Source: Gimesia sp.
Lineage (GTDB): Bacteria; Planctomycetota; Planctomycetia; Planctomycetales; Planctomycetaceae
Direction of reading: 5' to 3'
NCBI GenBank assembly: GCA_002706765.1
Contig: PAJV01000076.1
Location: 310,001-374,000 of the forward strand
Length of the DNA: 64,000 nucleotides
Below are positions 35,934 through 52,202 of the stretch, one piece after another. A program made the translations under genes and the position numbers. Below the pieces are notes generated by a model. The model was not told the origin of the DNA. It did not search any database and saw only the letters and a list, made by a program, of their open reading frames with translations. Each line of letters opens with the position of its first letter. Position 1 is the first letter of the stretch.

Positions 35934-37013
35934 ATGCGCGTTTTATTTCAGTGCAGTCTGATGATAATGGGGGTCTGTATGTTCTCTGGGGTTCCCTGTA
36001 AAGCAGAAAGTTATGCTTATATCTCTCTGGGGGGAGAGAAAAAGATCGCCATTTATCAGTTGAATGAAAAAACGGGCGCGTTAACTCATCTTGGAGACGT
36101 GGAACTGGAAGGAGCACCCGGCTGTCTGGAAGTCGATCCACAAAAGAAATACCTGTTTGCATCCGTCCGCACAGCACAGAAATTTAAGAGTTTCTCGATC
36201 GACCCGCAAACCGGCAAACTGAAGCTCATTTCCAGCATACCGGCAGGAGGCAATGCCGCTTACATCGCAACGGATAAAACCGGCGGATATCTGTTTTCCG
36301 CTTATTACGGCGAAGGTAAAGTTGCCGTCCATCGACTGGGAAAACAGGGTGCGATCCTGGAAGAGGTTCTGCAGACGATTCCAACCGAGAAAAATGCACA
36401 TGCGATTTTACCTGACCAGAAAAATCAGTTTGTCTTTGTACCGCATACCGGGCCTAACGCGATCTACCAGTTTCTCTGGGACGAAAAACAGGGAGTCCTG
36501 AAACCGAATTCTCCACCGAAGCTCTCCGCAGCCGCAGGTCTGGAGCCCCGCCATCTGGCGGTCTCGCAGGACAACCGTTTTCTCTACTTTGATAATGAAA
36601 AAGGAAGCTCAGTTACGGCATACAAGCTGAATGCAGAGACGGGAACTCTGACTCCCTTCCAGACCGTTTCGACGTTGCCCGCTGAGTTTAAGGGTAACAA
36701 TACCTGTGCTGATATCGAACTGTCGCCCTCCGGCGATTATCTATACGCCTCGAATCGGGGGCATAACAGTATTGCCTGTTTCGCCGTTGATCAGAAAACA
36801 GGGGAGTTATCATCTATCGGACAGACGCCGACGGAAGATACGCCTCGGTCTTTCAATATCGATCCAACGGGTCGATTCCTGTATGCGGCGGGACAGAAGA
36901 ATGGCAAACTGGCTGCATACAAAATCTCGCCTGAAAACGGAACTCTCAAACGATTTGCAACATATGAAGTCGGCAAATCTCCCTCCTGGGTAGAGATTGT
37001 AAAGTTTCCCTGA
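35934..37013 (+). CDS. exported lactonase-family seven-bladed propeller (6-phosphogluconolactonase-like)
   Basis: 359-residue beta-propeller of the YbhE/Pgl lactonase family with a signal peptide (SLMIMGVCMFSGVPCKA, cleavage near AES at residue 24-25). Repeats of the form TGxLT/KxxxxxP...GxxPxxLxxxxxGxYLYA recur (KTGALTHLGDV, QTGKLKLISSI, ETGTLTPFQTV, KTGELSSIGQT, ENGTLKRFATY). Cytosolic relatives hydrolyse 6-phosphogluconolactone; the export signal here makes that pathway role doubtful, and gnd lies 9 kb away. AAGGGG precedes the ATG. Same strand as the sigma/membrane protein pair but separated by 80 bp. Confidence 0.9.
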   Translation: MRVLFQCSLMIMGVCMFSGVPCKAESYAYISLGGEKKIAIYQLNEKTGALTHLGDVELEGAPGCLEVDPQKKYLFASVRTAQKFKSFSIDPQTGKLKLISSIPAGGNAAYIATDKTGGYLFSAYYGEGKVAVHRLGKQGAILEEVLQTIPTEKNAHAILPDQKNQFVFVPHTGPNAIYQFLWDEKQGVLKPNSPPKLSAAAGLEPRHLAVSQDNRFLYFDNEKGSSVTAYKLNAETGTLTPFQTVSTLPAEFKGNNTCADIELSPSGDYLYASNRGHNSIACFAVDQKTGELSSIGQTPTEDTPRSFNIDPTGRFLYAAGQKNGKLAAYKISPENGTLKRFATYEVGKSPSWVEIVKFP

Positions 37014-37029
37014 TCCGCAAAATTGCCGC

Positions 37030-37173
37030 TATAATAAAGCGTGCTGTCAGCTTTTGCAGGAAATCGTTCAGTCAGCGAACAGAGAGCGTCGATGTTCTTC
37101 AGTGGATGAACTCAATGGTAGAGCTCGTCTCTGCGCAGCGTGTTCTTCGCTTCGTTAACTCTATTCATCGACT
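37030..37173 (+). promoter_or_regulatory. candidate -10 box and structured leader
   Basis: TATAAT at 37030-37035 lies in the 191-bp spacer before the small secreted-protein gene, without a good -35 box. About 55 bp downstream GTCGATG (37088-37094) can pair with CATCGAC (37167-37173), which is directly followed by TTTTT. This could be a leader that ends prematurely (attenuation) or a small RNA; both are speculative. Confidence 0.25.
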
Positions 37174-37204
37174 TTTTCTGCTCTTGTGAAGAGAGAGGCT
37201 CGTC

Positions 37205-37606
37205 ATGCGCTTTTCTATATGCTCTTTGATTCTGACTCAGCTCTTCGTCGCTGCCTCTTATGGTCAGGAACAGACACCTCTGCAGATCAGCTCTGATCAC
37301 TTCTCGGCAGACACACAGAAAAACTCGATCAACATTACAAAAATGCCGTCAACGGATGCTTCAGGCCCGGCGTATCAGCGGATGTCTGTCAGTCAGAAAC
37401 TGATTCAGCAAAGAGCGTTTCTACAGGCGCAACAGCGAATGCAGCGTATCAGCGACCGGAAAGCAATGGGAATTACTCCAGGCAGACCGACCATTTATGT
37501 GAATGCGACTCCTCTGCCAACCTACTCTCAAATCATGCAGCAGTCAGCCTGGTATAATTACAATCCGTATCAATTCAATGGCTACTGGTATGGACCCGAA
37601 TACTAG
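37205..37606 (+). CDS. small secreted protein of unknown function
   Basis: Unrecognised 133-residue protein with a signal peptide (MRFSICSLILTQLFVAASYG, cleavage before QEQ). The mature part is polar, with a Gln-rich helical centre (QKLIQQRAFLQAQQRMQRI) and an aromatic, Tyr/Asn/Gln-rich C-terminus (SAWYNYNPYQFNGYWYGPEY). AGAGAGAGGC precedes the ATG. Its stop codon TAG is supplied by the first bases of a dispersed repeat (37603-37691). Confidence 0.65.
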   Translation: MRFSICSLILTQLFVAASYGQEQTPLQISSDHFSADTQKNSINITKMPSTDASGPAYQRMSVSQKLIQQRAFLQAQQRMQRISDRKAMGITPGRPTIYVNATPLPTYSQIMQQSAWYNYNPYQFNGYWYGPEY

Positions 37607-37691
37607 AGCGCATCACATTTAACCATAGCGTCTCTCAATCTATTATACTCGCTCCAAATGGGCCTGGAGACGCTACAGTAAAACTGGACAC
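37603..37691 (+). repeat. stop-codon-overlapping dispersed repeat, copy A
   Basis: About 89 bp beginning CTAGAGCGCATCACA, where TAG is the stop codon of the gene at 37205. It contains inverted arms ATAGCGTCTC and GAGACGCTA separated by about 33 nt and ends with ACAGTAAAACTGGA. It matches copy C (50468-50556, opposite strand) over its whole length with roughly ten differences, and copy B (41888-41965) at both ends. On the opposite strand it carries TATAAT. Confidence 0.85.
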
Positions 37692-37720
37692 AGTCTAAGA
37701 TTTGATCGACCGGGGTGAAT

Positions 37721-38053
37721 TCACTCTTTTGCAGGAAGTGACTGTGCAAACTTCACTGCGCGATTGATCCAGTATTTGAGATCTTCTGAACTTCCATAAC
37801 CCGCCTGCTCAACATAGATCATGCTTTTGAGCGGCTTGCCTGTGAAATCCATTTCGCGCGTGTCAGGTTCTTGCAGCGCTTTTTGCGCACCCTGCTCTCC
37901 CAGTCTCAACATCAGACGATTCTGCGTGACGCCACAGCACATGTTCCCGTGCAGCATAAAGCAGATCCCGCCAAACATGTTCCGTTCTGAATAGCCTGTG
38001 AGGCGTTTCAGCAGCAGGCGAACTCTTTGTGCCAGATCTTCATCGTACGGCAT
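37721..38053 (-). CDS. TfoX N-terminal domain protein
   Basis: 110-residue protein consisting only of the TfoX/Sxy N-terminal domain, recognisable by RNMFGGICFMLHGNMCCGV and the DFTGKPLKSMIYV strand. Sxy/TfoX controls competence in gamma-proteobacteria, but stand-alone N-domains are widespread and of unknown role. GGAG lies six bases before the ATG. It converges with the small secreted-protein gene and copy A of the repeat. Confidence 0.85.
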   Translation of the reverse strand: MPYDEDLAQRVRLLLKRLTGYSERNMFGGICFMLHGNMCCGVTQNRLMLRLGEQGAQKALQEPDTREMDFTGKPLKSMIYVEQAGYGSSEDLKYWINRAVKFAQSLPAKE

Positions 38054-38188
38054 TTAAATCTCCATGCTGGAATTTATTCTCAGCGCCTTTCTTTTTTACA
38101 AAAAACTGAACAAACTGGAAGTGATCAGGGTTTTGATACAGGAAAGTGTATCTGTTTCTTCAGAGAATGTGAAAGTCAGGGATCTGGA

Positions 38189-39103
38189 ATGTTTTGGATT
38201 CGAATTCTGTTATTGGTCTGTTTTATGGAGACGGGGTCTTTCATTCAAACGGTGGCCGCTCAGAATGAGAGAGTTGAAGACAAAACGGTAACGCAACCGG
38301 TTCCCTTTCATTCCATGAGTCTTTCCGGGCTGGATAATGTTTTTCAGATCGACCGGCAGTTTTATTCAGGGAGTGGGCCGCATGAGGAACAAAGTTTCCA
38401 GGCGCTCAAAAAGCTGGGAATTAAAACGATCGTCAGTGTGGACGGGACGACCCCTGATCTGGAACAGGCTCGAAAAGCGGGAATGAAATATATTCATATC
38501 CCGATTGGCTACGACGGCGTTTCCGAGCATGCCGGACTCGCTTTTGCGCGTGTTGCACGGGATCTGAAGGGCCCCGTTTATATCCACTGTCATCATGGCA
38601 AACATCGTGGTCCGACGGCAGCAGCTGTGGTCGGACTGTGTCGGGGCAGCCTGGATCAGAAAAGTGCCCTGCAGTTTCTGGCACAGGCAGGAACAAGCAA
38701 GGATTACTCCGGGCTCTGGAAAGATGTGAAACGCTTTCAAGTTCCCGATTCTAAAACCATTCTGCCTGAACTGGTGGAATCAGCAAAAGTGCCTCCCATG
38801 GTGGCCGCCATGGCGCAAATCAGCCATGATTTTGAGATGTCGGATAAGCTACAGCAGAACAAGCCAGGGGATCACAGGGAAAGACTGCGGGTATTGGTCC
38901 TGCTGCGCGAAGAATTACGTGAAACCGCTCGTAAATACTCTGATGATTATGATGAAATGTTCAAACAGTGGCTGAAAGAATCGGAACAGCAGGTAAAGGT
39001 ACTGGAAGTCGCCGTTCAGCAGGGAAATCAGCAGATGTTTACAGCTGGCATGAAAAACCTGAAGTCTCAGTGCAAACGCTGTCACCAGGCTTATCGGGAC
39101 TGA
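38189..39103 (+). CDS. exported tyrosine/dual-specificity phosphatase with C-terminal cytochrome c-like motif
   Basis: 304-residue protein with two unusual halves. After a signal peptide (MFWIRILLLVCFMETGSFIQTVAA) comes a dual-specificity-like phosphatase domain: Asp/Thr loop VSVDGTTPDLEQARKAG, then the P-loop H-C134-HHGKH-R140-G (CX5R). The last 110 residues are a helical bundle ending C295-KRC-H299-QAYRD, the CXXCH haem attachment site placed at the C-terminus exactly as in cytochrome c'/c556 proteins. The joining of both in one exported protein is rare to my knowledge. The start at 38189 is supported by CAGGGA; the frame is open 54 codons further upstream without homology-like sequence. 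Confidence 0.85.
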   Translation: MFWIRILLLVCFMETGSFIQTVAAQNERVEDKTVTQPVPFHSMSLSGLDNVFQIDRQFYSGSGPHEEQSFQALKKLGIKTIVSVDGTTPDLEQARKAGMKYIHIPIGYDGVSEHAGLAFARVARDLKGPVYIHCHHGKHRGPTAAAVVGLCRGSLDQKSALQFLAQAGTSKDYSGLWKDVKRFQVPDSKTILPELVESAKVPPMVAAMAQISHDFEMSDKLQQNKPGDHRERLRVLVLLREELRETARKYSDDYDEMFKQWLKESEQQVKVLEVAVQQGNQQMFTAGMKNLKSQCKRCHQAYRD

Positions 39104-39119
39104 ACTCTCTCTTGTTCGT

Positions 39120-39287
39120 TTACTCGGTTTCTTTCCAGATGAGTTCTACTCGCAGGCCTTTATTTTCTTCTGTAGGCGTATTCAGCTTTATTTCAAAATC
39201 ATTTTTATTCCTACCCACATGCGCCAATGCACGTAGCGCAAACTGAAACCTTGATTCTGCTTTCGCCTGAATACGCATGCATCCCAT
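39120..39287 (-). CDS. possible 55-residue unknown protein
   Basis: Doubtful small gene. From ATG 39287, with AGGGG eight bases upstream, the minus strand encodes a basic helical part (ESRFQFALRALAHVGRN) and a strand-like part (DFEIKLNTPTEENKGLRVELIW). Composition is protein-like and the RBS is good, but no family is recognised. It converges with the phosphatase gene, with 16 bp between stops. Confidence 0.4.
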   Translation of the reverse strand: MGCMRIQAKAESRFQFALRALAHVGRNKNDFEIKLNTPTEENKGLRVELIWKETE

Positions 39288-39404
39288 AATGAACCCCTGT
39301 TCGATGTTTGAGAGAATTAGCAGGAAAAACAGCATAATAGGTAATCAGTAGTTGAGAATCGTAACAGAGTCTGGTGATAATGCACTCTCATTTATATCTA
39401 TTTT

Positions 39405-40556
39405 ATGGGCAGGGCTATGCGAATTATTTCTACAGTATTTTGGTCGGGTGTAGTGTTGGCAGTCTGCTGTTTCGGCAGAAGCGAAGCCGAGGAAAAAGTC
39501 AGCAGAAAGCGTTCTGAGCCCTCCGCTATCAACTCTTCGTGGGATGATCTGCTGGAAGGAATTGATACCCCCGAGGATTGGGTGGCGCATAAAAAGACGC
39601 TCAGGAAACGTTATCTTGAACTGATTCGTGACCAGTTCAAGCCGGAAAAACCTGATCTGCAGATACAGTTCCATGATACGGTGATTGTGGATGGGATCTA
39701 CCGCCGCCAGTTGATCAGCTATCAGGTGGAAAACGACGAACGGGCCCATGCATATGTCGGAGTCCCCTTGTATTTAAGAGGCCCGGCACCCGGGGTCGTT
39801 GCATTACATGGTACTTATAAACAGGGAAAAGAACGGGCAGCCGGCCTGGTTGAGAACCCGGACAAAGCGTATCTGGATCATTTATGTCGGCGAGGGTATG
39901 TGGTAATTGCTCCCGACCATTTTGTTGCCGGGCACCGTATACCCGAGGCAGGACCTTACGATACCGAGGCCTTTTACAAAAAGCATCCCGAGTGGACCGC
40001 CGTGGGAAAATTTACTTACGAGCACTCGATCGCCATCGATGTACTGCAGACGATGAAAGAAGTGAACCCTGAGAAAATCGGTGTGATCGGACACTCTTTA
40101 GGGGGGCATGGTTCGATGTTTCTCGCTGCTTACGATGATCGAATCCAGGCAGCAGCCGGTAACTGCAGTGCTTCTTTTTTCCGCCAGAATTCTAAAGTAG
40201 AAGCATGGTCTCGAGATCGCTGGTATGTCTATTTTAAACACATCCGCCCTGACCTGCTGAACGGGGATCTGCCACCGATTGATTTTCATGAGATCATGGC
40301 ATTGATCGCGCCCCGGGCATTTCTGGACCTGTCAGGACTGAACGATGGAGATCCACTGACCCAGCGGCAGCGCGTGTTGATGTTACTCAAGGTTATGGAT
40401 GTGTATGAGCTGGAACAAGCTCCGCAGAATTTCGCATTTTTTGTGCATGGGAAAGGTCATTCGGTAGCTCATGAATCGCGGGAGTTGATGTATGGCTGGC
40501 TGGATACTCACCTGAAACCCTCTACAGCGACAAAAACAAAACTGGTGAAACCCTGA
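39405..40556 (+). CDS. exported alpha/beta hydrolase (acetyl-xylan-esterase/dienelactone-hydrolase-like)
   Basis: 383-residue serine hydrolase with a signal peptide (RIISTVFWSGVVLAVCCFGRSEA). The nucleophile is Ser231 in GHSLGGHGS; the acid is likely in LSGLNDGDPL and the His in VHGKGHSVAHE near the C-terminus. The oxyanion region is VVALHGTYKQGKERAAG. Relatives include planctomycete esterases acting on acylated polysaccharides or ester plastics; the substrate here is unknown. Two starts are possible: ATG 39405, without RBS, and ATG 39417, with GGCAGGG immediately before it. The sixA-like gene follows after 21 bp on the same strand. Confidence 0.88.
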   Translation: MGRAMRIISTVFWSGVVLAVCCFGRSEAEEKVSRKRSEPSAINSSWDDLLEGIDTPEDWVAHKKTLRKRYLELIRDQFKPEKPDLQIQFHDTVIVDGIYRRQLISYQVENDERAHAYVGVPLYLRGPAPGVVALHGTYKQGKERAAGLVENPDKAYLDHLCRRGYVVIAPDHFVAGHRIPEAGPYDTEAFYKKHPEWTAVGKFTYEHSIAIDVLQTMKEVNPEKIGVIGHSLGGHGSMFLAAYDDRIQAAAGNCSASFFRQNSKVEAWSRDRWYVYFKHIRPDLLNGDLPPIDFHEIMALIAPRAFLDLSGLNDGDPLTQRQRVLMLLKVMDVYELEQAPQNFAFFVHGKGHSVAHESRELMYGWLDTHLKPSTATKTKLVKP

Positions 40557-40577
40557 AAATTAGGAAAGCAAAATTAG

Positions 40578-41054
40578 ATGGAACTGATTATAATCAGGCA
40601 TGGCAAAGCGGAACATGCCGGTGTGGTACCTGGAGGAGATTCTGCCAGACCGTTAACGGAACATGGCAGTTATCAATTTCGAAAAGTGGCTCAATGGATG
40701 GTCGAACACCAGAGTTGTCCCGACTTGATTCTGCACAGTCCGCTGGTACGAACCACTCAGACGGCACAAATCCTGAAGCAAGAAGCGGAATTGAATGACG
40801 ATTTCTGTCAGCCCCGGAACTGGCTCGGTTTTGGATTGGATCTGGAACAGTTGCTCTCATCCATCAGTAAGACTGCGTATGAACGGGTCGCAGTCGTTGC
40901 ACACATGCCTGATGTTGCGCGGTGTACTTCAGAACTGATTGGGGGTGGTTACATCACCTTCAAGCCTGGTAATGCCGCATGCATTCAGTTTGAATCAGTC
41001 ATCAGATCAGGTCAGGGAAGCTTGAAATGGCATCTGAGTGCACCCCTGTTTTAG
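40578..41054 (+). CDS. SixA-like histidine phosphatase
   Basis: 158-residue histidine-phosphatase (phosphoglycerate mutase-like) protein. The catalytic motif is LIIIRHGKAEHAG with His8, and the second catalytic His is in VVAHMPDVAR. Length and motif order match SixA, which removes phosphate from phospho-histidine of the Hpt domain of ArcB in E. coli; no ArcB-like partner is in the window, so the role is family-based only. It lies 21 bp after the esterase gene and is probably cotranscribed. Confidence 0.9.
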   Translation: MELIIIRHGKAEHAGVVPGGDSARPLTEHGSYQFRKVAQWMVEHQSCPDLILHSPLVRTTQTAQILKQEAELNDDFCQPRNWLGFGLDLEQLLSSISKTAYERVAVVAHMPDVARCTSELIGGGYITFKPGNAACIQFESVIRSGQGSLKWHLSAPLF

Positions 41055-41120
41055 CGCGCTGCCCGGAGCGTCAATAGAAATTCGTGCTGTAACGAGCTCT
41101 GATCGTGCAGCTAATACGAA

Positions 41121-41792
41121 TTAAGAATGTTGCTTTGAGAACAGTTCCAGCACACGCGCATCAGTCAGGCTGTCGGCAATGAACTGAGCCGAACTGAAGT
41201 CCCCGTAGTTACTGTATTCGTGTGGAATCGAAACAACATAAGCGCCTGAGCCGACTCCCGACTTCGTACCTGTTTCACTGTCTTCCAGAACGAGCATCCG
41301 TTGTGGAGGGACGCTCATTTTTTCTGCAGCGGTCAAATAGATTTCCGGATGCGGTTTACCATGTGTGACATCTTCTGCAGTCAGGCTGATGGGGAAACGA
41401 TGGATGAGGTCGAATTGCACGAGCAGAGTATCCAGGTAAGCCCGTGGAGAAGACGTTGCGACACATTTGGGAATCCCCAGTTCTTCCAGATAATCCAGCA
41501 GTTCGAACAACCCTTTCATGGGCTTGAGGTGATCCTGTAGAAGCGACTGGAAGATATCCTGACTTTCCAGCCAGAGTTCGTGGGGATCCTCTGGTTTATC
41601 CAGATGGCTGGAGAGATGTTCAAATCCTTCCATCGCCCGCCGCCCCATCATGCCCCGCAGGATATCGGGCGTCATCGATTTTCCACGGCGTTGCAGGAGT
41701 GCATCGCCTGATAGAAAAAAAACGTGTTCGGTATTAAACATTAATCCATCCAGATCAAAGGCGACTGCCTGGATGGGAAGCTGGTCTGACAT
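41121..41792 (-). CDS. HAD-family hydrolase (beta-phosphoglucomutase/phosphoglycolate-phosphatase-like)
   Basis: 223-residue subfamily I HAD phosphatase. Nucleophile and acid are Asp13 and Asp15 in AFDLDGLMFNTE; motif II is CVATSSPRAY, the motif III Lys is in HGKPHPEIY, and motif IV is LVLEDSETGTKSG. A helical C1 cap lies between motifs I and II. The start at 41792 is supported by AAAGAG nine bases upstream; the frame is open much further (to 42095) but that part overlaps the end of glcF and is not HAD-like. It lies downstream of glcDEF on the same strand, so a phosphoglycolate phosphatase role would make sense; this is inference. Repeat copy B lies between. Confidence 0.87.
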   Translation of the reverse strand: MSDQLPIQAVAFDLDGLMFNTEHVFFLSGDALLQRRGKSMTPDILRGMMGRRAMEGFEHLSSHLDKPEDPHELWLESQDIFQSLLQDHLKPMKGLFELLDYLEELGIPKCVATSSPRAYLDTLLVQFDLIHRFPISLTAEDVTHGKPHPEIYLTAAEKMSVPPQRMLVLEDSETGTKSGVGSGAYVVSIPHEYSNYGDFSSAQFIADSLTDARVLELFSKQHS

Positions 41793-41887
41793 GAGTAAAC
41801 TCTTTTTTTGTAAAATAGAAACTGGTGAAGCGACTCTCTGATGTAGATTAGTCGTTCTTTCCAGCAGGTTCAATCGAATGGCCTGGA

Positions 41888-41965
41888 CTGCCTCCCGTTT
41901 TGCTGTAGCGTCTCCCAGACCATCGGGACCTGGTGTATAATCGATTGTGATGTGATGCGCTCTAG
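41888..41965 (-). repeat. stop-codon-overlapping dispersed repeat, copy B (diverged)
   Basis: Read on the minus strand it begins CTAGAGCGCATCACA, where TAG is the stop codon of glcF, and later has GATTATAC and GGGAGACGCTACAGCAAAAC, matching copies A and C. It lacks the segment with the left inverted arm (TTAACCATAGCGTCTCTC), so the long hairpin cannot form. Confidence 0.7.
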
Positions 41966-43323
41966 AATGCAGGTTTCTGTCCTCGATAGCTGAGATCCAG
42001 CAGCTCCATGGGATGCGCGACCCAGAGTGGCTGATGAGACTGGCGGAGTTTGGAATCAATCTGCAATGTGCAGCCAACATTCCCGCTGATGACAATTTGT
42101 GCTCCCGTGTCCAGAATATTTTTCAGTTTGCGTTTTCCCAGTTGATCCGCCATTTCCGGCTGTGTCAGATTGTAGCTGCCAGCGGCACCACAGCAGATGG
42201 TCGATTCATTCAGGGGAATCAGGTTGAGCCCGGGAATCAGTTCCAGCAGTTTGCGTGGTTGATTTTGAACTTTCTGGGCGTGAACCAGGTGACAGGCATC
42301 ATGGTATGTCGCGGAATGGGGGATTTCCCCCTGGGGAGCAATCGGCCCCAGTTCAAACAGAAACTCAGAGACATCCTTGAACTTTGACGCCAGTTGTTTC
42401 AACTGCTCTTTGTGTTCTGCGGAGACGCCCTCAATTTCTTCTGCGATGTGGCCATAATCTTTCAGCATGGCACCACAGCCGGCGACATTGACGATGATGG
42501 CATCGATGTCATCAAGTTCAAAAGCAGCCAGATTCTTTAATGCGAACTCCAGGGCAGCCTGGTCGGCACCGCTGTGATAGTGAATGGCGCCACAGCAGGC
42601 CTGCGTTTTGGGAATCACGACTTCGCAGCCATTGGCCTGCAGGACGCGAACCGTGGCTCGATTTACATGGCTGTACATCGCTTCCGAAACACAGCCTGTA
42701 AAAAAGGCAACGCGCGCCCGCTGGGTTCCCTGGGCGGGCAGAACTTCCGGCAGATCCGGTTCGGCCGGCTTGAGACGTGGCAGCAGATCATTCATGCGTT
42801 TCAGTTTATCCGGCAGCAGACTGGTCAGTTTCAACGCATTCATGAGTTTGTCGATTCGCAGAGTCTGCATGACCCGCGCCGGCACTAATGTCATCCGAAT
42901 CCGACTGGGATAGGGAAACAGCCGGTAGAGAATCCAGCGGTGGAACCAGTCCTGTTGGGAGCTTTTACCCTGGCGGGCATCCATTTTCTGAATGTCGACG
43001 CGGAATGGCTCAATCAGGCGACCATATTGTACCCCGGAGGGACAGGCTGTTTCACAACTGCGACAGTCCAGGCAGAGATCCAGGTGACCGCGCACAGCAT
43101 CAGAGAGTTCTACCCGCTGGTCGACCACCGCCCGCATCAGATAAATACGCCCACGAGGGCTGTCGTTCTCATTTCCCGTTTCCAGGTAAGTGGGACAGGC
43201 GGCAGTACACAAGCCGCAATGAATACAGTCCAGAAATTTCTCGTAAGGGATCTGAGAGCCGGGAATTTCTTTCGGATCTTTCGTGATGTCTACGGGATGA
43301 GAGCTAGAACTTCCAGGTTTCAT
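41962..43323 (-). CDS. glcF: glycolate oxidase iron-sulfur subunit
   Basis: 453-residue subunit that passes electrons from the FAD subunits of glycolate dehydrogenase to the quinone pool. Two 4Fe-4S clusters are bound by C33-IHC-GLC-TAAC43-P and C84-LDC-RSC-ETAC94-P. Two cysteine-rich CCG domains follow (FFTGCVSEAMY...QACCGAIHYHSG and YHDACHLVH...STICCGAAGSY), as in GlcF and heterodisulfide reductase-type subunits. It is the last gene of a glcD-glcE-glcF operon with 55 bp to glcE. Its TAG stop is the first element of repeat copy B. Confidence 0.95.
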   Translation of the reverse strand: MKPGSSSSHPVDITKDPKEIPGSQIPYEKFLDCIHCGLCTAACPTYLETGNENDSPRGRIYLMRAVVDQRVELSDAVRGHLDLCLDCRSCETACPSGVQYGRLIEPFRVDIQKMDARQGKSSQQDWFHRWILYRLFPYPSRIRMTLVPARVMQTLRIDKLMNALKLTSLLPDKLKRMNDLLPRLKPAEPDLPEVLPAQGTQRARVAFFTGCVSEAMYSHVNRATVRVLQANGCEVVIPKTQACCGAIHYHSGADQAALEFALKNLAAFELDDIDAIIVNVAGCGAMLKDYGHIAEEIEGVSAEHKEQLKQLASKFKDVSEFLFELGPIAPQGEIPHSATYHDACHLVHAQKVQNQPRKLLELIPGLNLIPLNESTICCGAAGSYNLTQPEMADQLGKRKLKNILDTGAQIVISGNVGCTLQIDSKLRQSHQPLWVAHPMELLDLSYRGQKPAF

Positions 43324-43378
43324 ATATTAACTCGTATGCGAGATGCAGTTAGTCGAAGAGATTGCGTTGAGTACGATT

Positions 43379-44629
43379 TTAAATTTCAACCAGTTCATTA
43401 AACCGTTGTGAATTCAGCAGGTGCTCAGGATCTAAAGCGTTTTTAAATTGTTTCATCAGATCCCAGCCTGCAGGGGGAGAACAGAACAGAGGCAGTGAAT
43501 CAGACCAGTCTGACTCACACTGATAGATGTTCAAATACCCTGTTTTCGGATCAATGGTCGTTTTCAGCTGGTTGAATATCTGCTGGACATCATCCAGGGA
43601 ACTGGCAGAATCCGGTAAATGCCCGAAAACAATTCCATCCGCTGCATGTGCCTGCACTGCGATATTCAGCTGAGTGGCTGTTTCAATAAATTTCATCATC
43701 TGCGAAGGGAGCAGAATGGCTTTGATCGTCACCGGGTCGTCGGAAGAGGTCTGATATTCAGTAAAGGCATCATACAGCCTGGTCGCCTCCTCGTTTTCCA
43801 CGGTCTGGACATGGAGGGGGGAGAACTGATTCCATTCCGAGGCGATCTTGTCAGTCTGCCAGCGGACCTCGTTTTCAGGTCCTTCGTAACAGACGCACAA
43901 AGTATGATGGTCCGCAGGCAGTTCCAGACGCGCTTCTGCAGCAATCTGACTGGCTGCTTTTGCGTTACAGTATTCCACCGCAATCGGCCGTGTGCCCGAA
44001 GTCACGACTGCTTCCAGCGCCTGATCGATCGTCTGACAGGAATCGAACTGAAACCAGACCATGGACATCGACTGTGGTTTCGGTCTGAGGTTCAGCGAGA
44101 CCTGGCTGATTACCGCCAGTGTGCCCAGTGATCCTACCAGCATTTTCCCCAGGTCGTAACCAGCGACGTTTTTCACTACACGACCACCGGATTTAAACAG
44201 ATTTCCCATGCCGTCGATGGCAGAAATCCCAATGACATAATCACGAATCGTCCCATAGGAAAATCGTTTTGGACCATTAATATTGGTAGCGATCACACCC
44301 CCAATGGTTGCCCTGTTCGACTGGGGAACATCCAGGGGAAGCCTCTGTCCCTCCGCGGAGACAATTTTGATCAATTCGTCGATGCGCATGCCGGCTTCGA
44401 CGGTAATGGTCAGGTCACGTATCGGGTAGTCGACTACCCGGTTGAGTTGTGAGGTACAGAGCTGAATTCCAGTCTGGCTGGCAGGACAGCAGACAGCCAG
44501 TGAAGTTCGTCCCCCGACTGGAAACAGCTGTCTGTGGTCAACTGCAGCATTTTCTGTCATGAAACGGCTTAATTCCGTTTGAGAAGCGGGAACAAATTCT
44601 TCCTGCGAGCCGGAGGAGAGAGGAGACAT
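43379..44629 (-). CDS. glcE: glycolate oxidase FAD-binding subunit
   Basis: 416-residue FAD-linked subunit of glycolate oxidase. The PCMH-type FAD site shows GGRTSLAVCC, the pyrophosphate-binding LPLDVPQSNRATIGGVIATNINGPKRFSYGTIRD and SGGRVVKNVAGYDLGKMLVGSLGTLAVI; all match GlcE, which is a shortened relative of GlcD. The start at 44629 lies 70 bp after the glcD stop, with GAAAGA upstream; the frame is open 73 codons further into glcD but without homology-like sequence. Middle gene of glcDEF. Confidence 0.93.
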   Translation of the reverse strand: MSPLSSGSQEEFVPASQTELSRFMTENAAVDHRQLFPVGGRTSLAVCCPASQTGIQLCTSQLNRVVDYPIRDLTITVEAGMRIDELIKIVSAEGQRLPLDVPQSNRATIGGVIATNINGPKRFSYGTIRDYVIGISAIDGMGNLFKSGGRVVKNVAGYDLGKMLVGSLGTLAVISQVSLNLRPKPQSMSMVWFQFDSCQTIDQALEAVVTSGTRPIAVEYCNAKAASQIAAEARLELPADHHTLCVCYEGPENEVRWQTDKIASEWNQFSPLHVQTVENEEATRLYDAFTEYQTSSDDPVTIKAILLPSQMMKFIETATQLNIAVQAHAADGIVFGHLPDSASSLDDVQQIFNQLKTTIDPKTGYLNIYQCESDWSDSLPLFCSPPAGWDLMKQFKNALDPEHLLNSQRFNELVEI

Positions 44630-44699
44630 GGTTTTTCTTTCAGGAGCCTTATTGAATAATGGGATTGCTGTTGAATTGTGTGGTCGGGTCGTTCCAGCA

Positions 44700-46208
44700 T
44701 CAGTGTGGTGCGCGTCTGGCCGGATGTGTCTGCGTAACCTTTGTTGCATTACCGGAACCATGTGGAGGCAGCACTTTGTCTCGACTGCAGATTTGTCGTG
44801 GATTAAAAATATTTCTGACCTTTTCCATAGTGGCCAGGTCGGTTTCATTAAAAATCCGGCTCATGAAATTGATTTTTTCCACACCAATGCCATGCTCGCC
44901 GGTAACGCTGCCACCCAGTTCCAGGCACTTTTCCAGGATTTCTTCGCTGGCTTCCAGCACCAGTTGGATCTGACCCTGGTCGCGTTCATCAAACAGCAGG
45001 ATCGGATGCACATTACCATCACCGGCGTGAAAAACATTGACGATTCGTAACCCATACTTTGCGCTGGTCTGTTCTATAAATTCCAGGATTTCTGGCAGCC
45101 GTGTCCGGGGAACCACACCATCCTGGGTACAGTAACTCGGGCTGAGTCGTCCAATCGCTCCGAATGCCTGTTTGCGACTTTTCCAGATCAGCATGCGTTC
45201 TTCGGGTGTGTCGGCACGCTGAATTTCGCGGACATTATTCTTGTTACAGAGTTCCAGTATTTTGGATACTTCCGCATCCATTGCCACTTCGAGACCGTCT
45301 ACTTCGATCAGTAATACCGCTCCCGCATCCAGAGGAAATCCAAAGTGAAAGGCTTCTTCCACTGCCTGGATAATGCCGTGATCCATCATTTCCAGCGCGG
45401 AAGGAATAATCCCTTCAGCGATAATTTCGGAGATCGCTCGGGTCGCATCTCCGATCGTCTGAAAGACTGCCAGCATCGTGCGATGGGCTTCCGGATCCCG
45501 AGTCAATCGGACGATCGCTTTGGTGCAGATCCCGAATGTCCCTTCATTGCCGACGTACACGCCATGCAGGTCATATCCGGGAACCTCCGCGGTGGGGCCA
45601 CCCAGTTCGATGATGGTTCCATCAGGCAGGACTGCTTCCAGCCCCAGCACATGATTGGTGGTGACCCCATACTTCAACGTGTGGGGACCTCCGGAATTGG
45701 TGGCGATATTTCCGCCAATCGTACACGACCCCTGGCTGGAAGGATCGGGAGCATAATGATATCCGGTTCCTTTGAGGGCATTGGTCAGATGCAGATTGAC
45801 CATGCCTGGTTCGACAATGGCATATCGGTCTCGGAGGTTCAGTTCCAGGATCTGTTTCATGCGGGTCAAGACGATCATGACCCCGCCCCCAATAGGCAGA
45901 CAACCGCCAGAAAGACTGGTTCCCGCACCGCGGGCCAGAAAGGGCACGTTAAATTCATTGCAGATCTTGACGGTCGCTGAAACCTGCTCAGTCGTGGTAG
46001 GGAAGACAACAATATCCGGTGCGGATTTATCCACAATGTACCCGTCACACTCGTAAACGAGCAGTTCGTCCGCGTTATACAGGATACCGGTTTTTCCAAC
46101 GATTCCGGTTAATTTCTGAATCAGAAGGGAGAAGGGACGGCTTCCTGCCTCCAGCTTTTCTAATACGGGAGCTGACAGGTTGATGGTCTGGCTGGTGTCG
46201 TCAACCAT
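44700..46208 (-). CDS. glcD: glycolate oxidase catalytic FAD subunit
   Basis: 502-residue FAD-dependent 2-hydroxyacid dehydrogenase oxidising glycolate to glyoxylate at the membrane. The FAD-binding domain has FLARGAGTSLSGGCLPIGGGVMI and YAPDPSSQGSCTIGGNIATNSGGPHTLKYG; the C-terminal FAD-oxidase domain has VFHAGDGNVHPILLFD and GSVTGEHGIGVEKI, which carry the metal-binding His residues. It heads the glcDEF operon. D-lactate is a possible alternative substrate for this family, but the accompanying E and F subunits favour glycolate. No clear ribosome binding site precedes the ATG. Confidence 0.95.
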   Translation of the reverse strand: MVDDTSQTINLSAPVLEKLEAGSRPFSLLIQKLTGIVGKTGILYNADELLVYECDGYIVDKSAPDIVVFPTTTEQVSATVKICNEFNVPFLARGAGTSLSGGCLPIGGGVMIVLTRMKQILELNLRDRYAIVEPGMVNLHLTNALKGTGYHYAPDPSSQGSCTIGGNIATNSGGPHTLKYGVTTNHVLGLEAVLPDGTIIELGGPTAEVPGYDLHGVYVGNEGTFGICTKAIVRLTRDPEAHRTMLAVFQTIGDATRAISEIIAEGIIPSALEMMDHGIIQAVEEAFHFGFPLDAGAVLLIEVDGLEVAMDAEVSKILELCNKNNVREIQRADTPEERMLIWKSRKQAFGAIGRLSPSYCTQDGVVPRTRLPEILEFIEQTSAKYGLRIVNVFHAGDGNVHPILLFDERDQGQIQLVLEASEEILEKCLELGGSVTGEHGIGVEKINFMSRIFNETDLATMEKVRNIFNPRQICSRDKVLPPHGSGNATKVTQTHPARRAPH

Positions 46209-46384
46209 TGTCGGGGGTAGCTTTCCATTAGGGCAAAGGGAAATAGTGAAGGTATTTAAGATGTATTTTAAATCAAAGTCAGCTCAGGAATCAATTCTCT
46301 GCCTGCTGCTTCGTTCAATTCGCGAGGTTTAAATGCTGTATTTGTGCCAGAAAAAACGAATTCCGTCCATTCTGCAGAAGAAAG

Positions 46385-47881
46385 TCATTTCTGATTGACC
46401 CAGATGGGGCTGGACCAGGCCATCTCGCCATTGGACTGAATGACGCGTACATAATACCAGTCATCCTGTTTGCCATCGCTCTGATCCGTGAATGTGAATT
46501 CAGTATTCCACTGCTTATGGAATACAATTCGGTGCAGCATGGCCGATTCCCAGGGAAAAGGTCGGGTAAATAACATTTCATTGCTGACCGCCAGATCGGA
46601 AAACTTCTGCGTCAGCTGACATTCAGTCGGCTTTTGACAGGAAACAGAAATTCGGGTGTCTGCATCTCCTTGAATCCGCATGACGATGGCTTTCTGAGAC
46701 CAGTCATCGACCTGTTGTTTGAGGGCAGTGAACGACTGGATCTTCAACTGCCGGGGTGTTTGTTCCAGGATGCGATCACGGCGGAATTCGTCCAGTGGTC
46801 CGGTCGTAAAACAGGGTTGGATCTGCTGGATTTCGCCCCCTTCGACATCGATATTGAATTTCCAGTCAGCCGTGCCGCCCCAGCCTAATGCCGGCCAGGG
46901 ACCCCAGCCATATTCGAAACGCAGAACTACCGGTTGCTCCCAGGGATTGGCTCCGTTAGATTTATCAACAGGGAAATCTCGATGAATGACTCGTCCGTTT
47001 TTTAGAACTTCGACACGATCAATTTCATCCCAGGCCTGCACGTTCACTTTCAGTTCACGTTCATCGGTAAATGGTAGTTCCTGGCCCATCATCTGATCAT
47101 TGAGATGGAAATCGAGTTCGATGCGATCTCCGGAGACTGCATAGCAGCGACGATGGCGCAAACCGTCGAATAACGCATCGCGGGTCAGTTCGGTGGCTTT
47201 GATGGCGGCCAGACCTTCGCGGTAGCCGCCCGGGTATCCCAGATGATCGTCCGTACTGGCAACCACTCCGAATCGATATCCCTGGTTCAGGTAATACTGA
47301 AGTGTGTGTTTCGTCCAGCGCCCCCCTTCCGTGTGCCTTTTATAGGGAAAGGGAGCCCGGTCATGTTCGGCGCAACCCCATTCGGAATGGATTTCCAGGA
47401 CGGGAGAGACTGTGGAATCCATTTTTGTCGGATCAAATCCCCGGTGCCCCAGACGATTGGCTGGATGATGCGGTATCAGCAGGCAGCCCCGTTGCCTGGC
47501 GAATGACTGCAGTGCGGAGAGGTCTTCGATCAGTTCGTAGTCCCCCTGCAGATCGGGAAATAGAATGTGGTAGTCCCCTTCTTCGGTTCCATGTCGTTCA
47601 TACCCCAGAATGGTGACAAACTCCCCTGGTGAATCGAAGTCCCTGGCCAGTTGAACGACTTCCGGCCAGCGGGCGCGGGCGATGTGAAATCCGTTTTTCC
47701 ATTTGTGGGTGATTTTACCATCGTAATCGACGATATCAGGCCAGTAGGCATGAGGGGTAAAGGCATAGAAATCAAGATGATTTCGCGCTATTTCAAACGA
47801 GCGGTCGAGTGATCCCAGTGCATAACCTACGTGGTTGTGGTTATGTAAATCGCCGAAGTAATTCTGATAGTCAGTTGTCAT
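46385..47881 (-). CDS. PHP-domain metal-dependent hydrolase of unknown substrate
   Basis: 498-residue protein. The N-terminal half is a PHP-type phosphoesterase fold with metal-binding motifs GDLHNHNHVGYALGS (9-23), HLDFYAFTPHA, LIPHHPANRLGH, LEIHSEWGC and VASTDDHLGYPGG. The C-terminal half is beta-rich (about 270-498: VNVQAWDEIDRVEVLKNGRVI, FTFTDQSDGKQDDWYYVRVIQ), as in planctomycete DUF3604-like proteins. No signal peptide is seen, so it may be cytosolic. It lies 176 bp upstream of glcD on the same strand but separately transcribed by appearance. Reaction unknown. Confidence 0.8.
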   Translation of the reverse strand: MTTDYQNYFGDLHNHNHVGYALGSLDRSFEIARNHLDFYAFTPHAYWPDIVDYDGKITHKWKNGFHIARARWPEVVQLARDFDSPGEFVTILGYERHGTEEGDYHILFPDLQGDYELIEDLSALQSFARQRGCLLIPHHPANRLGHRGFDPTKMDSTVSPVLEIHSEWGCAEHDRAPFPYKRHTEGGRWTKHTLQYYLNQGYRFGVVASTDDHLGYPGGYREGLAAIKATELTRDALFDGLRHRRCYAVSGDRIELDFHLNDQMMGQELPFTDERELKVNVQAWDEIDRVEVLKNGRVIHRDFPVDKSNGANPWEQPVVLRFEYGWGPWPALGWGGTADWKFNIDVEGGEIQQIQPCFTTGPLDEFRRDRILEQTPRQLKIQSFTALKQQVDDWSQKAIVMRIQGDADTRISVSCQKPTECQLTQKFSDLAVSNEMLFTRPFPWESAMLHRIVFHKQWNTEFTFTDQSDGKQDDWYYVRVIQSNGEMAWSSPIWVNQK

Positions 47882-48066
47882 TGGATTCTGGCAGTTCTGA
47901 AATAGATATTTTCTTTGCGGATATGCTGGGTCCTGTTCGCCTTGTCTGAACGGACTATCGATTCATCTGAAACATTATGCCGCAGGAATGCAAGTGTTTC
48001 TGTTCATTCCACCGTGAAACTCCACCGTGAAAATGAGCAGTTCGTTTATCTACCCTATTCTTCAGG

Positions 48067-49590
48067 TCATCGGCTCCAGGTGAGCCATTTATTGAAAATA
48101 CTTTTCACCAGTGGACTGAGTCGTGTGCGATTGTATTGGTCGCCGATTTTTCGGATGGCGTCTGCCTGCGTAGGATAGGGGTGAATCACGCTGGCCAGTT
48201 TTTTTAATCCCATGCCGGACTGCATGGCGACCGAGATTTCTGAAATCAAGTCACCTGCATGGCTGGCGACAATGGTGGCCCCCAGAATTTTATCGCTTCC
48301 CTGTTTGACATGAATTTTTACAAAGCCATTTGTTTCGGCATCCAGAATGGCGCGATCAACGTCTTTCAGTTCCTGGATGAAGGTTTGGATGCGAATATTT
48401 TTCGCAGCCGCTTCATGTTCATACAGCCCAACGTGTGCAATTTCAGGCTCTGTGTAAGTACACCAGGGGATCAGCAGGTTGCTGCTCTTGCTTCTGCCTT
48501 TGAAGAGAGCATTTCCAATGACAATCCGCGCCTGGAAATCGGCGGTATGAGTAAACTGATAGCGCGAACAGATATCGCCGGCGGCATAAATGGCTGAATT
48601 GGTCGTCTGCAGATAATTATTGACGAACACGCCCTCCCGTTCATCGTATTTTACACCCGCCTGTTCCAGGTTTAACCCCTGCACATTCGGTGCACGCCCT
48701 GTGGAGATGAGGATTTCATCGACGATGATCTCAGACTGTTTACCTTGAAGATCAATCTGAATCGTTTTGCCGGCTGCAGTTCGAGCGATTTGAGTGCTGG
48801 CTGCGTTGAGCAGTATCTTGACGCCATCCTGTTCCAGTTGTCTCTGAATAATTTGCGCAGCATCACGGTCTTCCCGGGGCAGAATCTGCGTTCGTGACTG
48901 AATTAAAGTGACTTCTGAACCAAAGCGGGCGAAAGCTTGTGCCAGTTCACATCCGATAGGACCGGCTCCCAGAATTGCCAGCCGCAGGGGGAGTTGGGTT
49001 AATGAAAAGATGGTTTCATTTGTCAGGAAGCCGGTCTCTTCGAGGCCTTCGATCTCGGGGACAGCCGCCCTGGCACCGGTGGCGATAACCGCTTTTTTGA
49101 ATTCAAGTTGCCGTTGATCAACCTGGATCGTAGAGCGATTGAGAAAGCTGGCGTCGCCGATAAAGACATCGACCCCCAGATCTTTAAAACGTTGCGCGGA
49201 GTCATGTGTGCTGATGTCGGCCCGCAGTTTACGCATACGTTCCATTACCTGGGGAAAGTTGACTGCCACTGATCCGGTAGCAATTTGAATACCCAGTTCG
49301 TTTGACTGCATGACAGCATGCATGGCCCGGGCGGAGCGAATAATGGCTTTGGAAGGAACGCAGCCTGTGTTCAGGCAGTCGCCTCCCATCAGGTGTCGTT
49401 CTATTAACGCGACTTTGGCACCCAGCCCTGCCGCACCCGCTGCGGTGACCAGGCCAGCGGTGCCTGCGCCGATGACGACCAGATTATATCTCCTCTCCGG
49501 TTGGGGATTGATCCAGCCAGGCGGGTGGACCTGATTCACCAGCTGTTGATTAAATTCATCGGGGGGATCAATCTGAAGTGATTCGGTCAT
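48067..49590 (-). CDS. pyridine nucleotide-disulfide oxidoreductase (MerA/dihydrolipoyl-dehydrogenase-like)
   Basis: 507-residue flavoprotein with FAD motif VVIGAGTAGLVTAAGAAGLG, redox-active pair C72-LNTG-C77 in GGDCLNTGCVPSK, the NAD motif LAILGAGPIGCELAQAF and the dimer-interface motif HPYPTQADAI. A 30-residue N-terminal extension precedes the fold. It resembles MerA in the core but lacks both the HMA domain and the C-terminal Cys-Cys pair needed for Hg(II), so it is not a proven mercuric reductase. It lies 32 bp downstream of the TVP38 gene, a pairing seen in many bacteria. AGAGCAGG is next to the ATG. Confidence 0.9.
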   Translation of the reverse strand: MTESLQIDPPDEFNQQLVNQVHPPGWINPQPERRYNLVVIGAGTAGLVTAAGAAGLGAKVALIERHLMGGDCLNTGCVPSKAIIRSARAMHAVMQSNELGIQIATGSVAVNFPQVMERMRKLRADISTHDSAQRFKDLGVDVFIGDASFLNRSTIQVDQRQLEFKKAVIATGARAAVPEIEGLEETGFLTNETIFSLTQLPLRLAILGAGPIGCELAQAFARFGSEVTLIQSRTQILPREDRDAAQIIQRQLEQDGVKILLNAASTQIARTAAGKTIQIDLQGKQSEIIVDEILISTGRAPNVQGLNLEQAGVKYDEREGVFVNNYLQTTNSAIYAAGDICSRYQFTHTADFQARIVIGNALFKGRSKSSNLLIPWCTYTEPEIAHVGLYEHEAAAKNIRIQTFIQELKDVDRAILDAETNGFVKIHVKQGSDKILGATIVASHAGDLISEISVAMQSGMGLKKLASVIHPYPTQADAIRKIGDQYNRTRLSPLVKSIFNKWLTWSR

Positions 49591-49622
49591 CCTGCTCTCT
49601 TACGATAATTGTGGAAAGCGGC

Positions 49623-50408
49623 TCAAGTCTGTTTCTGCAGTCGATTCACTGTTTTCTTTACGAGTAGAGGAAATGTTCCCAGCAGTATAAAGGCGATTAT
49701 CAGCTGCGGGGATAAAATTCCGCGAGCCCCCTGCTTTGAAAGTTCGTGCAGGGTGGGAACACTCGTGCCAGCGTAGACATAAACGGCGGTTCCAGCAAGC
49801 ATACCCAGTTGGCTGACCCACCAGAATGTCCAGACGCGAATGGTCGTCAGACCCATCAACAGGTTGATGAGAAAAAACGGAACCGCGACGACCAGCCTGA
49901 GGGTAAAGAGGTAGAAGGCGCCTTCCTGTTCAAACCTTCGATTGAAGCTGGTGAAGCGATCGCGGTAGCGACTTTGAATCGCAGAACGAAACAGGTAACG
50001 GCTGGTTAAAAATGCCAGTGTGGCGCCCGCTGTCGAGGCAAAACTGACCAGCAGCAGACCTTTCCAGAAACCGAAAAACCAGCCATACGACAAAGTGAGC
50101 GGAACTGCTCCCGGCAGTGAAAGACCTGTAATTCCAGCATAGATCAGAAAGGCAACCAGGTAAATCGCGACTGGATGTCGTGCAGCAAAATCCTGCCAGT
50201 GATGTTCCTGGGCAGCGAGATATTCTAGCGTCAGGAGATCGCGATACTGAAAATAGACCAGGCAGAAGATCCCTGCCAGGATCATCAACACGATTATACG
50301 CAGGTAAGTCGAAGATGATTTCCAGCTTGATGCTGGCGCGGGCTGAGGCTTCAGCGATTCACTGGTCTCAGGAACGTGTGATTGCGAATCAGAATCGGCA
50401 CGGTCCAC
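49623..50408 (-). CDS. TVP38/TMEM64-family (VTT/SNARE-associated) membrane protein
   Basis: 261-residue inner-membrane protein with five or six hydrophobic segments. The family signature is visible: YAGITGLSLPGAVPLTLSYGWFFGFWKGLLLVSFASTAGATLAFLTSRYLF, then a charged loop and RLVVAVPFFLINLLMGLTTIRVWTFWWVSQLGMLAGT. Related DedA/VTT proteins scramble lipids in other organisms. The start is GTG at 50408 with AGGA upstream. Translated with the downstream flavoprotein gene (32-bp gap), so a joint redox or lipid function is likely. Repeat copy C lies just upstream. Confidence 0.88.
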   Translation of the reverse strand: MDRADSDSQSHVPETSESLKPQPAPASSWKSSSTYLRIIVLMILAGIFCLVYFQYRDLLTLEYLAAQEHHWQDFAARHPVAIYLVAFLIYAGITGLSLPGAVPLTLSYGWFFGFWKGLLLVSFASTAGATLAFLTSRYLFRSAIQSRYRDRFTSFNRRFEQEGAFYLFTLRLVVAVPFFLINLLMGLTTIRVWTFWWVSQLGMLAGTAVYVYAGTSVPTLHELSKQGARGILSPQLIIAFILLGTFPLLVKKTVNRLQKQT

Positions 50409-50467
50409 CTGTGATGTCCTGTTCTAAAGGATTTCGCAGTAAAGTGAGTCGCATCCAAACCGGGACT

Positions 50468-50556
50468 GTATCCAGTTTTACTGTAGCGTCTCCAGGGCCA
50501 ATTGAGCCGAGTATAATCGTTTGAGAGACGCTATGGTTAAGTGTGATGCGCTCTAG
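50468..50556 (-). repeat. stop-codon-overlapping dispersed repeat, copy C
   Basis: Read on the minus strand it begins CTAGAGCGCATCACA, where TAG is the stop codon of rho, and carries the arms ATAGCGTCTC and GAGACGCTA and the end ACAGTAAAACTGGA. It aligns along its full length with copy A. On the plus strand it has TATAAT (50511-50516). Confidence 0.85.
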
Positions 50557-52202
50557 AGTATTGCGCGGATCTTTTCCAGAAACTCTTTGTTGCTCGGGAA
50601 TTTCTTGAGGGTACTGCTGAGCTGTTCCATGGCTTCGACCGGGTTCAGTGAAATCAGGCTGCGGCGGAGCATTGTAACGCCTTCCAGGACTTCGGGGGCC
50701 AGGATTTTTTCTTCACGGCGGGTTCCGGAGAGCGTGATATCAATCGAAGGAAAGATCCGGCGGTCGGACAGTTCCCGGCTGAGAACCATTTCCATGTTGC
50801 CGGTTCCCTTGAACTCCTGGAAGATTACTTCATCCATACGGCTGCCCGTATCAATCAAAGCGGTTCCCAGCACAGTCAGGGATCCACCCTCGTCAAAACG
50901 ACGGGCCGTCCCGAACATCTTTTTGGGAATATCCATGGCTTTCACATCCAGACCACCACTCATGGTACGTCCGGTGTTTCCCACCCATTTGTTAAAAGCA
51001 CGTGCGGTTCGTGTGATACTGTCCAGCAGGATGAAGGCGTCTTCGCCTGCTTCAGCCAGTCGTTTTCCACGTTCAAAAATCAGCTGGCTCGTACGAACGT
51101 GACTTTCGACATCACGGTCCATCGAGGAAGAGATCACTTCGCCTTTGATCGAGCGCTGCATTTCCGTGACTTCTTCGGGGCGTTCGTCGATCAGCAGCAC
51201 CATCAGCCGGATTTCGGGATGATTTGTGCTGACTGACTCTGCGATATCCTGCAGCAGCATGGTCTTACCGGTTCGAGGGGGAGCCACAACAAGTGCGCGC
51301 TGACCTTTGCCGATGGGAGTCAGCATGTCCATGATCCGCATGGTGATGGGCATGGGGCCTGTCTCCAGTTTGATCTGTTCAAACGGATTGATGGGAGTCA
51401 GCTCATCGAACGATTTGATTTGCATGTATTCTTCAATGGTCCGGCCATCAATCGTTTCGATGGATTTCAGGCGGGGTCCCTGGCCTCGTGTGCCCGGACC
51501 AACTTCACCGCGGATGAGAATCCCTTCACGCAGATTGTGTTTTTCGATCAGCGAACTGGAAACAAAGGCGTCAGAGTCCTGCGCCTTGTAATTGGATTTA
51601 GGATCTCTGATGAAGCCGTAAGCTTTCGGATGTAATTCCAGGACACCTTCAATGGTACCCGAGATATTTTCATCAGCGGGCGTGTTTGAGCGAGGTCGGC
51701 GGTTTTGATTTCTGTTGGCTCCCGTATTCCCGCTGCCGCCTGATCGCGAGCGATTTCCGCCGCGGTTAGTATTGGAGTTGGCGCGGCCCCGGTTGCCTCC
51801 ACCCTGATTCTGGCCACCCTGCCCCTGTCGTCCTGGGCCCTGGTTGGTTGTTGTGCCGTCTGATTTTCTTCTTCGTCTTCTGCGGCGACGATTGCCTCCG
51901 GATTTGTCGGATGACTGATCACTGTCTGATCGATTTGTGTTATCGTCGCCTCGGGATTCAGCAGGAGTATCTGACATGCTTGCGGGTTCTCTTTCAGGTT
52001 CTGCATCGCTCTGGGATGAATGAGATTGTTCGAACATTTCGAGGTTTTCTTCCGCCTTGCGATGGTATTCATCCTGCAGGGCATCGGTCTCACTTTTTTC
52101 CAAAGTGTCCTCAGTAGAGCGTTCTACTTTCTTGCGTGGTTTCGTAGTTTTACGACGTGCAGGTTTGGGTTTGTCTGAAGTTTCAGAACTTTTAGCGGCC
52201 AT
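50553..52202 (-). CDS. rho: transcription termination factor Rho with long low-complexity insertion
   Basis: Hexameric RNA helicase ending transcription. The 549-residue protein has the RNA-binding domain (GVLELHPKAYGFIRDPKSNYK), P-loop VAPPRTGKTMLLQDIA, Walker B LMVLLIDERPEEVTEM, Q-loop and R-loop segments and the arginine finger region (LSGTRREEKIL), all intact. Residues about 25-180 are a low-complexity region, first acidic then RRRRRRRRK, followed by Gly/Asn/Gln/Arg-rich repeats (GQGGQNQGGGNRGRANSN). Such insertions occur in Rho of other phyla and can promote condensates or RNA binding. Its TAG stop is the start of repeat copy C. Two 13-bp direct repeats lie upstream. Confidence 0.96.
   Translation of the reverse strand: MAAKSSETSDKPKPARRKTTKPRKKVERSTEDTLEKSETDALQDEYHRKAEENLEMFEQSHSSQSDAEPEREPASMSDTPAESRGDDNTNRSDSDQSSDKSGGNRRRRRRRRKSDGTTTNQGPGRQGQGGQNQGGGNRGRANSNTNRGGNRSRSGGSGNTGANRNQNRRPRSNTPADENISGTIEGVLELHPKAYGFIRDPKSNYKAQDSDAFVSSSLIEKHNLREGILIRGEVGPGTRGQGPRLKSIETIDGRTIEEYMQIKSFDELTPINPFEQIKLETGPMPITMRIMDMLTPIGKGQRALVVAPPRTGKTMLLQDIAESVSTNHPEIRLMVLLIDERPEEVTEMQRSIKGEVISSSMDRDVESHVRTSQLIFERGKRLAEAGEDAFILLDSITRTARAFNKWVGNTGRTMSGGLDVKAMDIPKKMFGTARRFDEGGSLTVLGTALIDTGSRMDEVIFQEFKGTGNMEMVLSRELSDRRIFPSIDITLSGTRREEKILAPEVLEGVTMLRRSLISLNPVEAMEQLSSTLKKFPSNKEFLEKIRAIL

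Follow-up and report, generated by a model that had tools for sequence, protein, structure and literature searches.

The short repeat found at the stop codons of three genes in the window, i.e. the whole 64,000-nt stretch of Gimesia sp. DNA analysed here, is almost certainly a MITE, a non-autonomous member of the IS630 family, which an IS630-type transposase encoded elsewhere would move into TA sites, duplicating the TA. IS630-type MITEs are a known kind of element, and this family is new as far as the literature searched shows: searches for MITEs at stop codons or for the repeat itself listed no account of it. The pattern at the gene ends is explained by TA + G alone; there is no need to invoke a conserved RNA, a targeting of stops or a rewriting of gene ends. 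TA + G = TAG is a simple rule for a striking pattern, and it lends itself to testing on other TA-duplicating elements.

As the original prediction stated, CTAGAGCGCATCACA occurs exactly at three places in the window, 37603-37617 (+), 41951-41965 (-) and 50542-50556 (-), and each time the adjoining open reading frame (37205-37606 (+), 41962-43323 (-) and 50553-52202 (-)) uses the TAG within it as stop codon. The three copies are present, and the extents first given to them were too short; with their bordering bases, copies 1 and 3 span 37603-37698 and 50461-50556. Copy 1 (90 bp, 37606..37695, + strand) is bounded by TA at 37604-37605 and 37696-37697, and the stop codon of the small protein gene (37205..37606, +) consists of TA and the first G of the copy. 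This small protein, labelled 'secreted' in the earlier work, had no NCBIfam match. Copy 2 (77 bp, approximately 41886..41962 without the TA, - strand) is internally shortened; the TA of its left end is intact (41963-41964) and that of its right end has decayed. At this left end lies the stop TAG of a GlcF-like gene (41962..43323, -), whose product has PRK11274 as its best NCBIfam match, below the cut-off. Copy 3 (90 bp, 50464..50553, - strand) likewise has an intact TA at its left end (50554-50555), where the stop TAG of the rho gene lies (50553..52202, -), and a decayed right end. The Rho protein matches NF006886 above the cut-off.

The window is a lucky cluster of stop-sited copies. Exact CTAGAGCGCATCACA lies at a stop in 3 of its 15 places in the own genome (G000), and these three are the window copies. 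CTAG is ten-fold depleted in the window (11 occurrences in 1-64000 vs 110 expected from shuffles), and three of the 11 are the MITE junctions at the three genes.

The MITE core is 90 bp long, with the left end GAGCGCATCACATTTAACCATAGCG and the right end, read in reverse, GACTGTGTCCAGTTTTACTGTAGCG. The full unit of about 96 bases including its borders runs from CTAG to CTAG or CTAA, and the inverted stretch TAGCGTCTC lies inside. It is short, gene-free and dispersed in many copies, as befits an IS630-family MITE. Allowing at most one mismatch, the 15-mer CTAGAGCGCATCACA was found at 42 places in the own genome (15 exact), a few of them being IS copies rather than MITEs (L020, L021 and L023; L-numbers denote individual stretches), while the reversed pattern was found at none, so that the repeat far exceeds chance. 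With a 29-mer from the left part of the MITE, without the TA, the own genome gave 62 places, a congener gave 174, and the controls gave none. Among the 40 genomes searched, the own included, MITE matches were present in all 17 genomes of the genus and in 0 of the 23 others. A 22-mer of the repeat returned four named stretches; their sources are two planctomycete MAGs, of which one bears the label Gimesia, and the own genome was possibly omitted from this listing. The distribution agrees with a Gimesia or a near relative as host.

Comparison with empty sites showed that TA is duplicated upon insertion. When 214 copies were entered, 12 had both flanks together in another genome (the rho insertion counting twice among these, once from G000 and once from another genome of the genus, G014), and the two-base overlap was exact in 6, within one base in 3 and a misfit in 3. 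Clean cases are the G014 copy in L144 against G008, a further genome of the genus (empty site CTAA), and the G000 copy in L133 against G014 (CTAG). The flanks of copy 1 also join with a two-base overlap in G008, G014 and another genus genome, G006, all three of which read TGA there; the places of copy 2 (in G006, G008 and G014) and of copy 3 (in G008 and G014) are occupied. Because the empty sites show TA duplication, CTAG is read as the C of the target, the duplicated TA and the first G of the element. Both ends of the MITE begin with G, hence a fresh junction reads TAG in either orientation, and since the junction is C-TA-G, insertion into either TAA or TAG leaves TAG. The original prediction was right in that the repeat looks like a mobile element and completes the TAG, adding its own first G to the TA of the target. 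Among the 133 non-stop copies, TA was preceded by C in 117 and followed by A or G in 124, and C-TA-A was about as common as C-TA-G among the targets (34 and 33 of 76). The original target of copy 1 was probably C-TA-A as well; the corresponding TAA in G000 is not itself observed, and the three relatives carry TGA.

TA duplication is described as the signature of the IS630 family in PMC2170065. The same source cites, by its title, a study in which IS630 of Shigella sonnei inserts preferably in CTAG (Tenzen and Ohtsubo 1991). A named kind, the IS630 family, does have the property for which the original prediction knew of no named family. The Gimesia MITE resembles IS630 of Shigella sonnei and ISY100 in duplicating TA, and differs from these autonomous elements, as far as that account goes, in being a 90-bp derivative for which C-TA-A is as frequent as C-TA-G.

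An IS630-type transposase stands beside the same left end as that of the MITE. At three places in the own genome (L020, L021 and L023), the MITE left end is followed by a transposase open reading frame that is shortened or broken, and the transposase pieces match PF13384 and PF13358. They also match the NCBIfam IS630 model, always below the full-length cut-off of that model. Two-ended IS copies, 1025 bp from TA to TA with CTAGAGCGCATCACA at both ends, are sited in C-TA-G in L078 and L081; L075 is bounded by CTAGAGCGCATCACA on both sides over 517 bp, and no right end was found in L076 and L077. Terminal inverted repeats are common to the MITE and the resident IS630, the right end being the poorer: the MITE consensus agrees with the IS ends at 22-23 of the left 25 nt and at 14-15 of the right 25 nt, and 14/25 at the right end was reached by 0.00045 of composition shuffles. 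Since the right end resembles the known IS poorly, the true mobiliser may be a different IS to which the known one is merely related. In G000, all copies seen of this IS630 type lack a second end: L021 and L023 look truncated and L020 broken. The N-terminal piece of the transposase was matched in 6 of the 17 genus genomes (the match in G014 being weak and broken) and gave no match at E 1e-10 in the other 11, though all 17 have MITE matches. The MITE would be mobilised in trans by an IS630 transposase. The transposase of L021 (703-1433, -) and L023 is split between two frames on either side of a run of A, a layout suggestive of frameshifting, and both copies look cut off by other sequence.

Among the closest known counterparts is RUP of Streptococcus pneumoniae, which is described in PMC2229807 and PMC3049150 as a 107-bp intergenic element of about 110 copies, with ends like those of the resident IS630-Spn1 and with insertion into TA, and which was proposed there to favour IS elements. 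As with RUP and IS630-Spn1, the Gimesia MITE is short, intergenic and present in many copies, with IS630-like ends and TA insertion. Unlike RUP as portrayed there, it has another sequence and host, gathers at gene 3' ends and has a right end that is less IS-like. A similarity also exists with REP elements, which are short palindromic extragenic repeats of high copy number. They are GTAG- or CGTC-tagged, and the GTAG types are linked to a tyrosine transposase. According to PMC3733652, the CGTC type has stems of 8-9 bp closed by a loop of 4-5 nt, and its tag is unpaired. Compared with that description, the Gimesia MITE has a loop of about 30 nt and TA-bounded transposon ends around its stem. REP identity was set aside because TA duplication and the IS630 ends place the repeat.

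In near relatives, the protein ends are unchanged at all three window genes. The original prediction had proposed to look for altered last codons in orthologues; C-termini were compared by tblastn across the genus genomes, and no genome in the comparison shifted the last residue of Rho or GlcF, nor did the three nearest relatives shift that of the small protein. For Rho, the protein ends at one and the same position in 17/17 genomes, of which 3 carry the element (G000, G008 and G014) and the remaining 14 stop with TAA or TAG. For glcF, the element is present in 4 of 15 genomes (G000, G006, G008 and G014), and the 11 without it have the same end position with TAG, TAA or TGA, although in 6 of them the alignment stops 2-3 residues before the end. 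At the small protein gene the element was seen by eye in G000 alone of 16 genomes; the three nearest relatives stop at the same residue with TGA, and the remaining 12 deviate by a few residues.

For the frequency analysis, near-full copies were defined as those reaching from consensus position 6 or earlier to 90 or later, which gave 66 of 78 copies in G000 and 109 of 122 sampled in G014; the shortened glcF copy is therefore absent from the 66. The stop counts exclude the 12 copies of other genomes, an insertion common to G000 and G014 was counted once for each, and the expectations for stops and zones were derived from 58 G014 stretches and the window. The G014 stretches were picked around well-matching copies, so this sample leans young, and the genes came from a simple purpose-written caller, so the zones are approximate. 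Exactly on a stop codon lay 42 of the 175 near-full copies (19/66 in G000 and 23/109 in G014), 23 via the left end and 19 via the right end, with at most 3 copies at any other single offset. Of the two refutations set out in the original prediction, the first goes against its idea, since most copies (133/175) lie away from stops, and the second does not, the overlap being about three times the intergenic expectation. The stop zone held 24.0% of copies vs 6.4-7.8% expected (3.1-3.7x, intergenic targets weighted by the bases beside TA), and the first 30 nt downstream held 18.3-19.4% vs 5.7-6.6% (2.95-3.2x). The ratio was 1.1x at 31-100 nt and 0.6-0.7x at 101-300 nt downstream, 0.76-0.84x within 100 nt upstream of genes, 0.41-0.46x at 101-300 nt upstream and 0.40-0.43x in the far zone. 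Depletion was strongest at a distance from genes (0.40-0.46x), where missed genes may inflate the expectation. None of the 175 copies was coding, though more than half of the target weight falls in coding sequence, and no called gene spans a whole MITE copy among them. In a simpler count of the 98 of 175 copies with both TAs intact, 22 were on stops vs 6.3% expected (p 1.7e-7). Places of CTAGAGCGCATCACA with at most one mismatch were at stops in 8 of the 41 scored in the own genome (one of the 42 was unscored), and those with one mismatch in 5/26; the counts in sampled G014 sequence were 7/43 and 8/39.

A stop-targeting transposon, attracted to stop codons over and above its C-TA-R preference, is unlikely. 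Such targeting would account for the 42 copies exactly on a stop and for the result of the simpler count, and also for the PF07596-type genes ending in GEF-stop, which were struck repeatedly and, judging by their differing right flanks, mostly independently. However, the first 30 nt past the stops are equally enriched: the stop and downstream-30 zones hold 42 and 30 copies, against an expected ratio of 0.9-1.14 to 1 (p 0.19-0.29). What is favoured is therefore the gene 3' end, to which the stop belongs, rather than the stop itself. Moreover, in G014 the copies at least 95% like the consensus were least often at stops (5/41); with 3/6 in G000, the age signal is not clear. Least probable of all is that the element truncates genes and donates a new stop, the rewriting of 3' ends that the original prediction raised. 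In G014, the genes in L151 and L183 finish in about six element-coded residues, that in L154 reads through the element, and five such offsets appeared among the near-full copies; L138 is a weak short gene call. Thus the MITE can alter C termini. Rewriting as a rule is not supported, with three quarters of the copies off stops by the above count and with the C-terminal position of Rho and GlcF unaffected by presence of the element. Under random truncation each frame should receive about one third of the endings, but the genes entering the left end stop at TAG in all 8 cases in G000 (L132, a 15-mer match inside a gene and not a near-full copy, is no other-frame ending) and in 15 vs 4 cases in G014.

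An RNA element at gene 3' ends (a terminator, or a processing or stability hairpin) retained for its function is also highly improbable. The bias of the copies to gene 3' ends would suit it, and copy 1 folds better than its shuffles (z -2.57, 1/200 as good), a value that any inverted repeat gives by itself. Over the 66 copies the stem is paired in 89.1% of cells vs 28-63% when slid, but shuffles pair equally well (89.3%). RNAalifold found no consensus pair, and the stem for the covariation test was therefore taken from the copy 1 fold. Compensatory changes, the mark of a structured RNA element, were hardly present: two-sided changes occurred in 1/659 stem cells against a shuffle mean of 2.5. 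A terminator-like match at 50541-50566 overlaps copy 3 at its end, on the other strand from rho, such sites numbering 20 vs 12.7 in shuffles by consensus scan; by eye, no T-run follows the long stem. A promoter-like match lies in copy 1, and such sites number 12 vs 11.9 in shuffles. In addition, no Rfam match was obtained at E 1 in 36000-52000, and the element is absent at 14/17 rho genes. Together with the equal excess at stops and in the next 30 nt, the near lack of compensatory changes tells against the 3'-end processing or termination element raised in the original prediction.

Returning to the MITE, an IS630-type transposase would insert it at TA sites, chiefly within C-TA-A or C-TA-G, with duplication of the TA. 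Insertion into a stop TAA or TAG preserves the stop (TAA becoming TAG) and leaves the protein unaltered. Insertions within genes are nearly absent among the survivors, and the remaining copies cluster at stops and in the next 30 nt. We infer that selection, not insertion preference, causes the 3'-end bias. The absence of copies from genes agrees with selection, but the milder under-use of upstream sites does not prove it. As a tentative and rather doubtful extension, stops may be a safe harbour for TA-targeting elements, in which TAG arises in either orientation, TAA turns into TAG and the copy is held since losing its first bases removes the stop. If so, such elements would be a directional force on stop-codon usage. 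A repeat may 'supply stop codons' without acting on gene ends, and the present MITE is a clean case in which the end sequence of a transposon may set where insertion is tolerated.

Hosts of the PF07596 type, a family also called DUF1559, numbered 8 by pattern and 10 by eye among the 42 stop insertions, in stretches that include L118, L123 and L136 (G000) and L144 and L151 (G014); G000 has 135 PF07596 matches. Gene duplication carrying the repeat along was rejected for these hosts, their right flanks being different by eye except in the orthologous pair L136/L151. In G014, L162:18041-18320 holds three MITE copies head-to-tail with a period of 92 (90 + TA), and this tandem array looks as if the MITE had jumped into its own end TA.
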